From Candidatus Thermodiscus eudorianus (lineage in GTDB: Archaea > Thermoproteota > Thermoprotei_A > Sulfolobales > Acidilobaceae), in assembly GCA_015521085.1 (NCBI GenBank), contig WAOW01000006.1, forward strand, positions 62,001 to 126,000: a DNA stretch of 64,000 bases. Reading direction: 5' to 3'. Below, in pieces: positions 3,657 through 59,554 of the stretch (its first letter is position 1; each line of letters begins with the position of its first letter). The translations under genes and the position numbers were made by a program. A model generated the notes under the pieces. The model ran no database searches. It was not told the origin of the DNA and saw nothing but the letters and a program-made list of their open reading frames with translations.

Positions 3657-5198
3657 CTAGGCCTGCAACGGGTCACGCAACAAGCCGGGTATCACCTCAA
3701 CTATGTCGAGGGCGGTCAACGACTCCCCGAGCCTCCCATAGGCCAGTTCTCCAGCACGGCCAACCAGGTAGGCCCCTGTTATAGCCGAGTTAAGGGGCGA
3801 CGGGTCCCCGAGTATGCTGTTGCGCTTCGCCATTATCCCGGCTATGACGCCGGTCAACACGTCCCCCGTGCCACCCACACTCATCGCGGCGACTCCACTC
3901 CTATTCTCCCTGCACAGCCCCTCGGCACTACACGCGGCATCCCTCGGGGCCTTCACCAACACAGTAGCCCCCAGCCTCCTGCTTATGCTCCTGGCCTGCT
4001 CCAGCGGGGCGGCGTCGACGCCCGATAAGAGCCTCGCCTCCCCGCGGTGTGGTGTGAGGACTACGGTTTCGGCCAGGCTAGTGCCGGACTCTGCCACCGC
4101 CCTCAGGCCATCGGCGTCTACGACTAGAGGGACCCTCTTCTCGACCGCCAACTCTATTATCCTGGCGGCGGCCTCAAGGGTCTCCTCCTCCCTCCCCAGG
4201 CCGGGGCCGATTGCCACCGCATGGACCCTCTCCATCATGCTAGCTATCCCCTCTAGGTCCTCTCTTGAGAGGGTCTCTCCCCGCAGCGGGTATGGTATCA
4301 CGGTGCTACACTTGGACGCTGCTGTGAAGGCTATCTCCCGTGGGGAGGCTAGGTAGACCAGGTCCACGCCGGTCCTCGCGGCGGATAGGGCTGTGAGGAG
4401 CGGCGCCCCGACATAGTACTTGCTCCCGGCCACGACCAGCACCCTCCCGCCGACGCCCTTATGGGAGTCCCTGGGCCTCCGCGGTATCCTGGCGGCTACG
4501 TCGCCTGGCCCGGCATAGTATTCGGCGTCCCTGGTCAGCCCTATGTAGGCGACCACCAGCTCTCCCGTGTAGAGCCTAGCCTTCAACAGGCCCCTCTTGA
4601 CCTTGTGCATTGTAACCGTTGCGTCAGCCCTCGCCGCCTCATCCACAGCCGCCCCCGTGTCGGGGTCCACGCCTGTGGGGGCGTCGATTGAGACCCGGAG
4701 CCCCGGGGCCTTGTTGAAGGCTTCCACCGCCTCCTTGACCGGGCTCCTGAGGGACCCTCTGACCCCGGTTCCAAGGAGCGCGTCGACCACCACGTCTGAG
4801 TCGTCGACCTCTAGCCAGCCCCGGGCCATGGGCTTCACTATCCCCACGGAGTCCATCCTCAGGAGGGCTTCTAGGTTGAGCCTTGCATCCTCGTGGATGA
4901 CCTCGGTGGGGGGATATGCCAGGTGTACCTGGACCCGGGCCCCCCTACCGGCTAGGTGTCTGGCGGCTACGAACCCGTCCCCGGCGTTGCCCCCCTTCCC
5001 TGCTATGACCGCTATCCTCTTCCCCTTCACGCCGCCTAGCCTGTACTCTATGTAGTCGGCGACGCTCCTGCCCGCGTTCTCCATCATTAGGAGTAGTGGT
5101 ATGCCTAGGGAGACGCCGTTTAGCTCGTAGGCCCTCATATCCTCTACCGAGATAGCCTCTACCTCATCCTCGCCTACCACGTAGAATCCCTGCGGCAA
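3657..5198 (-). CDS. nnr: bifunctional NAD(P)H-hydrate epimerase / ADP-dependent dehydratase
   Basis: This enzyme repairs hydrated NAD(P)H, damage that forms quickly at high temperature. The N-terminal half (about 1-220) is the NnrE epimerase domain, with GKGGNAGDGF (68-77) and IDAPTGVDPDTG (171-182). The C-terminal half (about 235-510) is the NnrD dehydratase of the ribokinase-like fold, with GPGLGR (331-336), DADGLR (361-366), TPHRGE (382-387) and the anion-hole GGTGDVLTG (442-450). Length 513 aa is usual for the fused form. It is divergent from a nicotinamidase-like gene, so two NAD-related genes flank one intergenic region that holds a GAGGGTCCCTC palindrome (5235-5245). Confidence 0.95.
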   Translation of the reverse strand: MPQGFYVVGEDEVEAISVEDMRAYELNGVSLGIPLLLMMENAGRSVADYIEYRLGGVKGKRIAVIAGKGGNAGDGFVAARHLAGRGARVQVHLAYPPTEVIHEDARLNLEALLRMDSVGIVKPMARGWLEVDDSDVVVDALLGTGVRGSLRSPVKEAVEAFNKAPGLRVSIDAPTGVDPDTGAAVDEAARADATVTMHKVKRGLLKARLYTGELVVAYIGLTRDAEYYAGPGDVAARIPRRPRDSHKGVGGRVLVVAGSKYYVGAPLLTALSAARTGVDLVYLASPREIAFTAASKCSTVIPYPLRGETLSREDLEGIASMMERVHAVAIGPGLGREEETLEAAARIIELAVEKRVPLVVDADGLRAVAESGTSLAETVVLTPHRGEARLLSGVDAAPLEQARSISRRLGATVLVKAPRDAACSAEGLCRENRSGVAAMSVGGTGDVLTGVIAGIMAKRNSILGDPSPLNSAITGAYLVGRAGELAYGRLGESLTALDIVEVIPGLLRDPLQA

Positions 5199-48490: not shown

Positions 48491-49039
48491 ATGCAGCTAG
48501 ACGCTGGAGAGCTCCCCACGCTAGCATTATACCTGGTGGTCATGTGGATTCCACCACTACTCCTCCTCTACAGGCTAACCTCTAAAAGCAACATGAGTGC
48601 TCTATGGAAGACAGTATTCGCTGCCGCCTCGATAATGTTACTCCTAGTACTGTTTCTATCGGGGCTACTCTCGATCGCCTCATACATCTCCCTAGCACTG
48701 CTCATCGGCTCGTACCTAAGCGGTAGGATTGGTTTCTCGGGCGCGGTATTCCTCGGCTTCGTCGTCTCGGGAGTTATTGGAGGGACCCTCCAGGCGTTAT
48801 ACTGGCCCTCCGAGTCGGCAGTCTACTTCGACGTCCTGGGTGGTGTTGTCGGCGAGGAGATCTACGATCTCGCCGTAGAGTCGTTGGGAGACCCTCATAG
48901 TGCTAGCGCGGATGCCACTGTCCCCGCGGCTTTCAGGTATCCCTGGGTGTTAATGCTGGGGTCCCTCACCGCCTGGTGCGGTCTTGGGGCTATGTTAGCC
49001 CTAGTGTTCCACCGCCTACGCCTAGGCCACATAATATAA
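48491..49039 (+). CDS. membrane protein, unknown
   Basis: A 182-residue protein with five membrane segments and a conserved-looking acidic loop (WPSESAVYFDVLGGVVGEEIYDLAVE) between them. The ATG at 48491 follows TTTGAGGCATGGGAG, and a TATA-like TTAATATAATA lies at 48429-48439. No family is recognised. It carries the most extended copy of the window's palindrome (TGGAGGGACCCTCCA, 48778-48792) within the coding region. Confidence 0.7.
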   Translation: MQLDAGELPTLALYLVVMWIPPLLLLYRLTSKSNMSALWKTVFAAASIMLLLVLFLSGLLSIASYISLALLIGSYLSGRIGFSGAVFLGFVVSGVIGGTLQALYWPSESAVYFDVLGGVVGEEIYDLAVESLGDPHSASADATVPAAFRYPWVLMLGSLTAWCGLGAMLALVFHRLRLGHII

Positions 49040-49221
49040 TTAAATATATAATTAAACTTATATTAATTGATTAAACCATGGAGATCCCAGTACTGGCCCA
49101 CCGCCCCCTAGCCAATAACGGCTACTAGGTAACAGTCCCTCCACGCTTGTAATCACCTTATTAACCCGGCCGGAGGCCCGGTAAACGAGTATAGAGGATG
49201 GAGGACTCGGAGTAACAGGAC

Positions 49222-50176: not shown

Positions 50177-50614
50177 AACCCCTCTAAAATTCAAGAGACA
50201 ATGGAGCCAGAGTGATCGTGGTAACAGTACCTGAAGGGTCCTCTAGAGGAACACGTACACAGATTAATCAACAGTCACTGCAAACAGCAATTCCCTGGGT
50301 TCCCGGGAATTAGGCGTAGCAGGCAAACCCCTGGGGTTAATGGAAAACAGGGCTCTAGCCCCGGGGATTCTACACACCCACAATCAACTACAAGACGAAA
50401 TTCCCTGGAAATCCGGGAATTCCGGGCCTGGCCAGGCAAAACATATACATTCATGACTGTAAAGGATAAATATGATGAGGGCGGCCCCTGTCATGAGTTT
50501 CATAGTGAATCCACTGTATGGATGTGTGTTTAATGGGGGTTAAAGGCTCCCTTTAAAGATGGGAATCTGACCGATAGAAGAGGGCTAAAGGAAACCTCTA
50601 GCCCGAGCTATACT
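50177..50614 (+). promoter_or_regulatory. CRISPR leader region with eight palindromes
   Basis: This 438-bp gene-free stretch precedes the first repeat. It holds TCCTCTAGAGGA (50239-50250), AATTCCC-N9-GGGAATT twice (50289-50311 and 50399-50421), AACCCC-T-GGGGTT (50326-50338), CCCCGGGG (50359-50366), GCCTGGCCAGGC (50426-50437), TTAAAGG-CTC-CCTTTAA (50540-50556) and GGGCTA-N11-TAGCCC (50582-50604). TATA-like GGATAAATATG is at about 50464-50474. It is called leader because the far end of the array carries the degenerate repeat. The palindromes may bind adaptation or CRISPR-transcription regulators. Confidence 0.7.
50289..50421. repeat. two copies of a 23-bp inverted repeat in the leader
   Basis: AATTCCC, nine variable bases, GGGAATT occurs at 50289-50311 (centre TGGGTTCCC) and 50399-50421 (centre TGGAAATCC). 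The copies are exactly 110 bp apart start to start. Arms are identical and centres differ, as expected of a dimeric protein's operator rather than of a recent duplication. Confidence 0.75.
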
Positions 50615-51878
50615 GAAAATCTAACATAGAATTGAAAGACCCTCAAAAGCGCCATCTTCCAGATGAAGTTCGCCGCGAAAATCTAACATAGAATTGAAAG
50701 GTAATGCGCCCCTTTCGGAGGGAGAGCCCCTAGCGATCACCCTGAAAATCTAACATAGAATTGAAAGTTCATGAATCATAAAGTAGTATGCGACTGTCTT
50801 TATGGAGAAAATCTAACATAGAATTGAAAGACTATAAAGTCCATTACTAACATAGCGTCGCCTAGTGTCAAAATCTAACATAGAATTGAAAGACGCTATG
50901 TGGCGTCGGGGGATCGCAGACAGGTGACGCGTCAAAATCTAACATAGAATTGAAAGTTCTTCTATTGGCGGGTCCAGCGTCCTGTACTGCACGCCAGCCT
51001 CGTTCAACCAAAATCTAACATAGAATTGAAAGTCCAACTCTTCGTCACTCAACCAGCCGTCCTGGCCCTCAAATGCAAAATCTAACATAGAATTGAAAGA
51101 GACACGGCGATCCTTGAAGTGGCGTGGCAACTCCTGGTTAAGCAACAAAATCTAACATAGAATTGAAAGTGATTCGTCCAAGCCAGTAAAACGCCTTCTT
51201 CAAGTATCTTCAAAATCTAACATAGAATTGAAAGTACATTACCTTTATTATTTCTATTATATTTTTGTCTGTTAGCAAAATCTAACATAGAATTGAAAGA
51301 GCCTGAGAGTCCGACCAGTTACAGGTACTGGCTCAGGAAGTACAAAATCTAACATAGAATTGAAAGGTAATATAATATCGCCGTAAGGCCATGGTATTCC
51401 ATTCAAAATCTAACATAGAATTGAAAGACACATCACACGGTCACCTCGGCTTCTATTGGCTTGAACTTGTCTGCAAAATCTAACATAGAATTGAAAGTTG
51501 AAAGAATAGAGAACTCCGTGCTCTCGGAGAGCTCTTAGCCTCCGCAAAATCTAACATAGAATTGAAAGACAATTATGCACTTGGCCCCCATCCTCCTAGC
51601 CGTCTCCAAAATCTAACATAGAATTGAAAGGCCATAGATCATGAACTCAGCTATCTTCTCATTGTTATGATCAAAATCTAACATAGAATTGAAAGTCAAA
51701 TGAACAGCCACCTATAGATATTCCATTAACATAATGACAAAATCTAACATAGAATTGAAAGGGGCGAGCCCGGAGCAGGTCAAGGCGGTAGTGGCGGGGA
51801 CAAAATCTAACATAGAATTGAAAGGGGAATTCTCGACGAAGACGCAGTTATACAGCCAAAGCACGACAAAATCCAACG
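50615..51878 (+). CRISPR. CRISPR array, 19 intact repeats plus a degenerate terminal repeat
   Basis: Repeats are 24 nt, begin with G or C followed by AAAATCTAACATAG and end in ATTGAAAG. They start (24-nt form) at 50615, 50677, 50744, 50807, 50869, 50933, 51009, 51076, 51146, 51211, 51276, 51343, 51404, 51474, 51545, 51607, 51672, 51738 and 51801. A degenerate copy (CAAAATCCAAC then divergent) starts at 51867. The 19 spacers are 37-52 nt. Degeneration at the right end and the first-base variant at the left place the leader on the left. The ATTGAAAG 3' end is typical of archaeal type I repeats. No cas gene is in the window. Confidence 0.97.
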
Positions 51879-53734: not shown

Positions 53735-53765
53735 GCTTGTTATTCTATGCCCGGGTGCTTATATG
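53728..53765 (-). promoter_or_regulatory. vapBC promoter, 38-bp exact repeat copy 1
   Basis: Identical over 38 bp to 54394-54431. On the minus strand it contains the TATA-like ATATAAGC, then ACCCGGG, and ends at the antitoxin start ATGGGAG. The TATA-to-ATG distance of about 28 bp means a leaderless transcript. The CCCGGG palindrome just below the TATA box is a probable site for VapB autorepression. This copy drives only the decayed module and lies inside the end of the next toxin gene. Confidence 0.75.
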
Positions 53766-54203
53766 CTGGTTTATCTCGCCTGGTGTTATAACTGTTATAC
53801 CTCTTTCCCGGAGTTCCTCGCACTTGTAGTCCTTCTTATTGTAGGTGAGAATGACTACCTCTTTGTATTTCTTGGAGAGGCTTAATGCGAGGGCGGCGAA
53901 CCACTTGTCTGCTGGGTCCTTGACGAGCTTGGCTGCCGTGTCGAGGTATTGCTCGTATTGGCTTGTTGGGACGAATTTTATGGCTTGTTTTAGGAGTTTC
54001 ATCCTTGCATGTAGCTCTTCGACTGGTGTGCCCTTCTTGATGGCCAGTTCTGTGAGGTGTTTGATTGTTTCCTCAAGCAGGATCTCTGGGGCGTATACCT
54101 CTGTTATTGTTAGTAGGTTTCTCACCGTACCATGGGTTGGTCCCTCTGGCTTGAGTATTGCGGCTATGAACACGTTCGTGTCTATGACTATTGGTGGGGT
54201 GAT
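53745..54203 (-). CDS. VapC-type PIN toxin, apparent AUC start
   Basis: PIN-domain toxin: TPPIVIDTNVFIAAILKPEG carries the first catalytic Asp (DTN), followed by EETIKHLTELAIKKG, DPADKWFAALALSL (Asp pair) and VVILTYNKKDYKCEEL. No ATG, GTG or TTG exists ahead of the essential DTN: the first GTG lies after it and would remove the catalytic Asp. A ribosome binding site TTAGGAGGGGG stands 5 bp before an ATC codon at 54201-54203, exactly where homologues start, so the start has become (or is) AUC. It overlaps the antitoxin gene by 16 bp. Confidence 0.75.
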   Translation of the reverse strand: MTPPIVIDTNVFIAAILKPEGPTHGTVRNLLTITEVYAPEILLEETIKHLTELAIKKGTPVEELHARMKLLKQAIKFVPTSQYEQYLDTAAKLVKDPADKWFAALALSLSKKYKEVVILTYNKKDYKCEELRERGITVITPGEINQHISTRA

Positions 54204-54400: not shown

Positions 54401-54431
54401 GCTTGTTATTCTATGCCCGGGTGCTTATATG
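54394..54431 (-). promoter_or_regulatory. vapBC promoter, 38-bp exact repeat copy 2
   Basis: This copy is identical to 53728-53765 and drives the antitoxin starting at 54400. It overlaps the last codons of the upstream toxin gene. A diverged third version (GATATAAACACCCGGGG then 15 bp and ATATGGGAG) precedes the antitoxin at 55065, so TATA, CCCGGG and ATGGGAG spacing is kept in all three. Confidence 0.78.
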
Positions 54432-54883
54432 TTGGTCTCTTGTAGCTCTCTTGGTGTTAGGACTGTTATACCCTCTCTTTGGAGTTCCTCGCATTTGTAG
54501 TCCTTCTTATTGTAGGTTAGTATGATTACTTGTTTGTAGTGTTCTCGTAGGTGTAGTGCGAGGGCTACGTATGGAGTGTCCTTCGGGTCCCTCACGAGGT
54601 CTTTTGCTTTTTCTAGGTGCTTCTTGTAGCTCTTCTTCTTGGCTTCTGTCGTTATTTTTAGGATTGTTTGGAGGGCTGTTTTGAGGGTCCAGGGGTCTAT
54701 GCCCTTCCTTTTCGCCACATCATCTACTACCGTGTTGAACTCCTCCTTCACGTAGTCCGGGACGTATAGCTTATCTCCTCTTAGGTGGAGGGTGAGTAGA
54801 GTGGCTGCTGTATAGCCTTCGGGTTTTAGGATTGAGGCGAGTAGGACGTTTAGGTCGAGGACTGTTGCGCGTGCCTCTTCCAT
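54425..54883 (-). CDS. VapC-type PIN toxin
   Basis: Full-length PIN toxin of 152 aa: ATVLDLNVLLASILKPEG (first Asp), VKEEFNTVVDDVAKRKG (Glu), RDPKDTPYVALALHL (Asp pair) and VIILTYNKKDYKCEEL. It would cleave RNA when free of its antitoxin. It is a close paralogue of the toxin at 53745 (the KKDYKCEEL end is identical), but here the start is a normal ATG at 54883, 34 bp inside the antitoxin gene's end. Confidence 0.9.
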   Translation of the reverse strand: MEEARATVLDLNVLLASILKPEGYTAATLLTLHLRGDKLYVPDYVKEEFNTVVDDVAKRKGIDPWTLKTALQTILKITTEAKKKSYKKHLEKAKDLVRDPKDTPYVALALHLREHYKQVIILTYNKKDYKCEELQREGITVLTPRELQETNI

Positions 54884-58777: not shown

Positions 58778-59554
58778 ATGTATGAGGCTAGGTACGGGTT
58801 GAACGAGGAGATAGAGGCTAGGATTAGGATACTGTTGGAGTTGAATAGGTACGAGGCCAAGGCCTATCTAACGCTCGTGAAAATGGGCTCTATGAAGGCA
58901 GTCGAGCTGGCTGAGCTCTCCGGGATACCGAGGGGCCGCATATACGATGTGCTTAGGAGCCTCGAAGCGAAGGGGCTAGTGAACAGGAGAGACCACTTAT
59001 ACGAGGCGGTCAATCCCAGGAGGGCACTCTCTAGGATCGGGCAGAGGAAGCTCGTCGAGGCACTAGACGCTATGAGGAGGATTGAAGAGTTGGCGGAGGA
59101 GCTTGAGAACTCCTATAAGACCGGTGGGATGAGAGAGGAGGTGAGACTCGTATATGGCTTAAAGGAGAGCCTCGCGGCGGCGCTCTCCTCGATAACGCAA
59201 TGCAAAGGACCAGTATACTTCGTGGCCTTCAAAGCCTCAGAGAAGAGCCTCGAATACTGGGACCTCCTAGCGCCGCTAATCGACAGGCTCCCCCCTAATG
59301 TGAGGATACTCGTCCCATCAACCCAGAGGCCGCCCAAGCAAGCCCTGGAGGCGCTCCTAGAGAAGGGGATCGAGGTCAGGAGTAGCCCGGCCGCGGTGCT
59401 TGACATGATGGCCGCCTGCGACACGGTGATAATAGGGCTGCCGAGCCTCCACCACGACGTGGTCTCGGTATTCATAAGGCATCCAGCCTTCGCATCAGGA
59501 CTAGCCTCTAGGCTGGAGGAGATGTGGCATAACGCCAAGCCAGTGAAGGAATGA
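58778..59554 (+). CDS. TrmB-family transcriptional regulator
   Basis: An N-terminal winged helix (YEAKAYLTLVKMGSMKAVELAE, GIPRGRIYDVLRSLEAKGLV, then VNPRRAL) is the standard TrmB DNA-binding domain, followed by a coiled-coil helix (LDAMRRIEELAEELENSY) and an alpha/beta effector domain of the phospholipase-D-like type (about 120-255). These proteins control sugar or transport genes in archaea. The start ATG is near-leaderless behind a palindromic TATA box. Targets could be the permeases on either side. Confidence 0.9.
   Translation: MYEARYGLNEEIEARIRILLELNRYEAKAYLTLVKMGSMKAVELAELSGIPRGRIYDVLRSLEAKGLVNRRDHLYEAVNPRRALSRIGQRKLVEALDAMRRIEELAEELENSYKTGGMREEVRLVYGLKESLAAALSSITQCKGPVYFVAFKASEKSLEYWDLLAPLIDRLPPNVRILVPSTQRPPKQALEALLEKGIEVRSSPAAVLDMMAACDTVIIGLPSLHHDVVSVFIRHPAFASGLASRLEEMWHNAKPVKE

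Follow-up and report, generated by a model that had tools for sequence, protein, structure and literature searches.

The leader of a CRISPR array in the window (the whole stretch of DNA analysed here, 64,000 nucleotides from Candidatus Thermodiscus eudorianus) carries two copies of a palindromic element, AATTCCC-N9-GGGAATT, which are probably operators of a Csa3-type regulator at the leader-distal end and a variant of the CAPPa/Csa3a motif whose spacer is 9 bp long rather than 10. This interpretation comes from comparing sequences: the pair, with its conserved arms, is confined to leaders in this genome, and relatives have it in leaders as well as in csa3/adaptation promoters. The original prediction, which had a Csa3-like protein among its candidate regulators, is thereby supported for this pair and not for the other palindromes around it (Table 1).

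Table 1. Palindromes, leader and array; negative positions are counted from the first repeat, and fractions give conserved positions among the three leaders with the same repeat.
Feature	Position	Strand	Remarks
Palindrome TCCTCTAGAGGA	50239..50250		outside conserved leader; not shared, 2/12
CRISPR leader	50277..50615	+	~339 bp, upstream of first repeat; ~80% identical to leaders of two other arrays in same genome
Distal palindromic element, AATTCCC-TGGGTTCCC-GGGAATT	50289..50311		starts at -327; in 3/3 leaders
Palindrome AACCCC-T-GGGGTT, between the two elements	50326..50338		partly conserved, 10/13; centre base T/G/A
Palindrome GGGCTCTAGCCC	50350..50361		not retained in sister leaders, 5/12
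Proximal palindromic element, AATTCCC-TGGAAATCC-GGGAATT	50399..50421		starts at -217; in 3/3 leaders
Palindrome GCCTGGCCAGGC	50426..50437		not retained in sister leaders, 6/12
TTAAAGG-CTC-CCTTTAA	50540..50556	+	conserved 16/17; TTAAAGG-CYC-CCTTTAA across leaders
Leader-end inverted repeat GGGCTAAAGGAAACCTCTAGCCC	50582..50604	+	-34 to -12; 18/23 conserved
CRISPR array	50616..51824	+	19 intact repeats AAAATCTAACATAGAATTGAAAG; truncated repeat after, at ~51868

The array has two sisters in the genome that share its repeat, AAAATCTAACATAGAATTGAAAG, on contigs C1 and C3; arrays of this kind hold up to 28 intact repeats, nearly all identical, and the three leaders show about 80% mutual identity. Homology among these leaders starts at element 1 in C1 and 12 bp ahead of it in C3, and runs to the first repeat, and the sequence upstream of this start is unrelated among the three. 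The leader proper therefore begins near 50277, which leaves the palindrome at 50239-50250 outside. Downstream of the array, two PIN-domain proteins, possible toxin genes, are encoded on the minus strand (53745-54173 and 54425-54883 of the window).

Across the three leaders, the arms of the distal element are identical at 14 of 14 positions and its middle at three of nine, and the arms of the proximal element at 12 of 14; taken together the arms keep 26 of 28 positions, as opposed to 33% for the loop of element 1 and 62% and 59% for the flanking sequence. The two copies were first described as one 23-bp element present twice, 110 bp apart, and both positions and spacing are exact, but what the copies have in common is the 7-bp arms only, their nine central bases being different (TGGGTTCCC vs TGGAAATCC). 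The consensus, AATTCCCTGGANTCCAGGGAATT, departs little from a perfect palindrome of odd length. Within this genome, the element and its spacing are conserved in leaders with the same repeat: the pair is present in 3/3 of them with spacings of 110, 111 and 110 bp, the distal element starting at -325 to -327 and the proximal one at -215 to -217. In the 1.52-Mb genome, a pattern search of the whole assembly found five exact copies of AATTCCC-N9-GGGAATT, all in leaders of this repeat and none outside them, and a sixth copy, with two mismatches, is also in a leader. As a separate observation, 23 identical bases lie near several contig ends of this assembly (G000 C2:58-80, C5:58-80, C9:77336-77358 and C10:84023-84045), which points to a repeated element as a possible cause of breaks in the assembly.

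The abundance of palindromes in the stretch 50239-50604 (366 bp) was examined by counting inverted repeats with perfect arms and loops of at most 12, in comparison with 200 shuffles. Repeats with arms of at least five number 12, compared to 4.1 ± 2.1 in the shuffles, of which one reached 12, and those with arms of at least six number seven, compared to 1.0 ± 0.9, with no shuffle reaching seven. The excess over shuffled sequence is thus confirmed; the claim that such density is seen nowhere else in the window is not. Counts of 12 or more perfect inverted repeats (arms of at least five) are found at four other places, and 48691-49200, with nine of them (arms of at least six) per 366 bp, is above the reported stretch.

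Nor do the data support a field of operators under multi-protein control, as first imagined. TCCTCTAGAGGA is outside the leader and probably irrelevant to it, GGGCTCTAGCCC and GCCTGGCCAGGC lack conservation in the sister leaders, and these three palindromes, at 50239, 50350 and 50426, are likely due to chance. Nothing points to the Cbp1-like control that was also put forward: published work places Cbp1 on repeats, and the 23-bp elements are not in repeats. The two array-proximal inverted repeats, inside a block 86% conserved among the three leaders, have other likely readings. The one at 50540 overlaps a TATA-like TTTAAA and is probably part of the core promoter, whilst GGGCTAAAGGAAACCTCTAGCCC lies near the position of the stem-loop bound by Cas1 in S. 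islandicus (PMC9456107) and may correspond to it, although each sister leader has one broken pair.

Another idea is that the palindromes work through a cruciform or hairpin, as structure in DNA or RNA, instead of as protein sites. The 7-bp arms are indeed perfect, and S. islandicus Cas1 prefers stem-loops at the leader end, binding from -25 to +7 (PMC9456107), but the elements at -327/-217 are far from the integration site and the half-site TTCCC/GGGAA is conserved across families with varying inner bases. Since structure would keep the pairing rather than the letters, we consider this very unlikely, and a cruciform-forming element, suggested earlier as well, is not required to explain the palindromes.

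Sites of the same kind recur in relatives. When the leader was compared with 98 relatives by BLASTN, almost only the repeats matched; leaders diverge too fast for BLASTN, and pattern searches were therefore needed. The pair pattern was searched in 229 genomes of the class, and genomes of the Thermosphaera group, which belong to another family, have the pair in their leaders, in the N9 form, at -270 to -272 and -152 to -154. Within the same genus, the leader of G002 shows one weak site at -219, its contig ending before the distal position. One-mismatch matches in G095 (C60:11957) and G088 (C245:5827) have no array nearby within the 6 kb read, and a scan of the pair pattern over all GTDB genomes was set aside, chance matches dominating the matches listed.

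Selection on the motif was to be avoided, so a sample was drawn by proximity to csa3: 60 regions no longer than 20 kb surrounding csa3 genes, in which 49 readable leaders were scored, with array ends and orientation set by the author from the repeat sequence. A site was defined as TCCC-N(8-11)-GGGA with dyad symmetry, a definition influenced by the first leaders seen, and a pair as two sites 85-160 bp apart, the expectation being taken from dinucleotide shuffles. At least one site occurs in 20 of the 49 leaders, compared to 0.63 expected, and a pair in nine, compared to none expected, some of the 49 being paralogues or sister-species sequences and hence non-independent. The site is thus often paired (9/20 of the leaders that bear it), and 29 of the 49 csa3-linked leaders have no site by this definition. 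Region G010, seen earlier by pattern, has no array and is outside this count. The spacer is 10 bp in 29 of the 30 sites of these leaders, N9 being rare, and the pairs, found in at least four families (f1, f8, f9 and also f11, where the arrangement is -210/-118), lie mostly near -270/-152 or -210/-118. Sulfolobaceae leaders (L302:9771-9886, L303 and L312) have TCCC-N10-GGGA sites 92 bp apart at -210/-118.

Upstream of csa3, a site is present in seven of 40 regions, compared to about 1.4 expected from average density, and four of these seven are pairs about 100 bp apart. Pairs precede csa3-csa1-cas1-cas2-cas4 in G140, where one of the two sites has a half-site mismatch, and csa3 in G047, G035 and G042. 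G140 belongs to the Thermosphaera relatives, and its sites, both in leaders and before csa3, are of the N9 form. In G033, a paired-site promoter in which a site abuts the TATA box occurs as two inverted copies at both ends of a 5.1-kb contig (L275:131-310 and 4799-4975). An origin of the palindromes by chance, in intergenic DNA of mixed GC content, would be in line with the similar counts at other places of the window and with the several listed palindromes that lack conservation, but the pair recurs in 3/3 leaders and across families where no pairs are expected; chance is refuted for the 23-bp pair and is an extremely improbable account of the whole.

The misfit is in the cas genes. The assembly, 95% complete and in 10 contigs, gives no match to the Csa3_N domain (PF22662) and has neither a type I-A Cas7 of the TIGR02583 kind nor a RAMP. 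A weak TIGR01884 match was set aside, similar weak matches being present in most genomes; these are probably generic winged helix-turn-helix (wHTH) proteins, such as the TrmB-like protein at 58778-59554 of the window. The single Cas1 is that of a type I-D locus (L125:2576-12177, on G000:C9), which also encodes a Cas3-like protein, Csc1, Csc2, Cas10d and Cas6 and is flanked on both sides by arrays whose repeat differs from AAAATCTAACATAGAATTGAAAG. Two Thermosphaera-group genomes, G141 and G142, likewise keep the elements with no Csa3 and no Cas1 detected; they are 96-98% complete, and their arrays and paired leader palindromes are on L128, L129 and L130. The explanation would be a cas island missing from these assemblies, relic sites, or a different regulator that reads them, and genomes with sites but no detected Csa3 raise the question of which protein that would be.

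Relic operators would mean that this lineage has lost its type I-A module together with the Csa3, that the three leaders have kept the sites by recent common descent, and that the arrays are orphans. Such a history, which we find possible but rather unlikely, would suit the absence of Csa3, type I-A Cas7 and RAMP from the assembly and the similar situation of G141 and G142, with arrays of up to about nine repeats. Relics would hardly be expected, however, to have arms conserved far above their flanks among leaders only ~80% identical, and the numerous intact and nearly identical repeats resemble those of active arrays; in addition, 95% completeness in 10 contigs leaves room for a missing cas island. 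Less probable still is that the sites are bound by a divergent CARF-wHTH protein of the type I-D locus (L125:10650-11324, on G000:C9), so that the regulator of one system controls the arrays of the other. It is the sole Csa3-like protein found in the genome, with a weak match to CasR/CARF3 models, a C-terminus that reads as wHTH, and a low-confidence structural model whose best match is Csa3 (2wte), but the mean pLDDT of this model is 52, and no TCCC-Nx-GGGA palindrome with good dyad symmetry is found in 20 kb around the type I-D locus, its own arrays included.

If the pair does consist of Csa3-type operators, the regulator, combining CARF and wHTH domains, would act as a dimer, with one dimer per site, and the pair could raise occupancy cooperatively, or the two dimers could loop the ~110 bp between the sites. 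Binding may activate pre-crRNA transcription and help to bring Cas1 to the leader end, as reported for the single S. islandicus site; the remaining palindromes would then represent core promoter, leader end or chance. By B-DNA geometry, a spacer with one base fewer than most relatives have would turn the half-sites by ~34 degrees relative to each other, which suggests a matching variant of the regulator. It is tempting to speculate, although we hold it doubtful in this general form, that paired sites 92-154 bp apart are used throughout the order by two Csa3-type dimers to bend or loop the leader. The dimers would then be the archaeal equivalent of IHF, positioning Cas1 at the first repeat and also turning transcription on, and lineages would differ by one base in half-site spacing, in keeping with their own regulators. 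The matter bears on how archaea without IHF steer new spacers to the leader end, and a paired site at fairly stable positions, in several families beyond that of the Csa3a work, offers a concrete and testable architecture.

The closest known counterpart is CAPPa, the CRISPR-associated promoter palindrome, an 18-bp putative Csa3a site of Sulfolobales leaders and of the acquisition promoter that co-occurs with Csa3a (PMC8699464). The figure legend of that work writes N8 whilst its text says 18 bp; the Sulfolobaceae leaders read here have N10, hence 18 bp, and fit the text and not the legend. The elements described here share with CAPPa the TCCC/GGGA half-sites and the location in CRISPR leaders, in 3/3 of those with repeat AAAATCTAACATAGAATTGAAAG and with every exact copy in a leader, and in relatives (G140, G047, G035 and G042) also the position before csa3 and the adaptation genes. 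They differ in the spacer, N9 (17 bp) as opposed to N10 (18 bp) in nearly all sites of csa3-linked leaders, and in being two copies 110 bp apart and further upstream (-327/-217) in a genome whose 95% complete assembly reveals no Csa3a by PF22662. No site stands before an acquisition cassette in this genome, where no type I-A cassette was found and the type I-D locus has no site. With Csa3 and type I-A undetected in the assembly and the type I-D locus free of sites, we call the finding CAPPa-like instead of assigning it to CAPPa itself.

Csa3a of S. islandicus binds a leader-distal motif from -143 to -94, whose mutation lowers spacer uptake, and interacts with Cas1 (PMC9456107). Footprinting has also shown Csa3a on the csa1 promoter, where the palindrome that it binds is imperfect (PMC4333418). 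S. solfataricus Csa3a, on the other hand, bound DNA in vitro without sequence preference (PMC8699464), and similar initial results of non-specific binding exist (PMC8844856). The pair resembles the S. islandicus motif in being a leader-distal regulator site apart from the leader-repeat junction, but that motif is reported as single, whereas here there are two sites, further from the array, to which binding is inferred. Finally, like the IHF site of type I-E and I-F leaders, the pair could serve as an upstream architectural or recruiting site for integration, although the protein and the sequence are unrelated.
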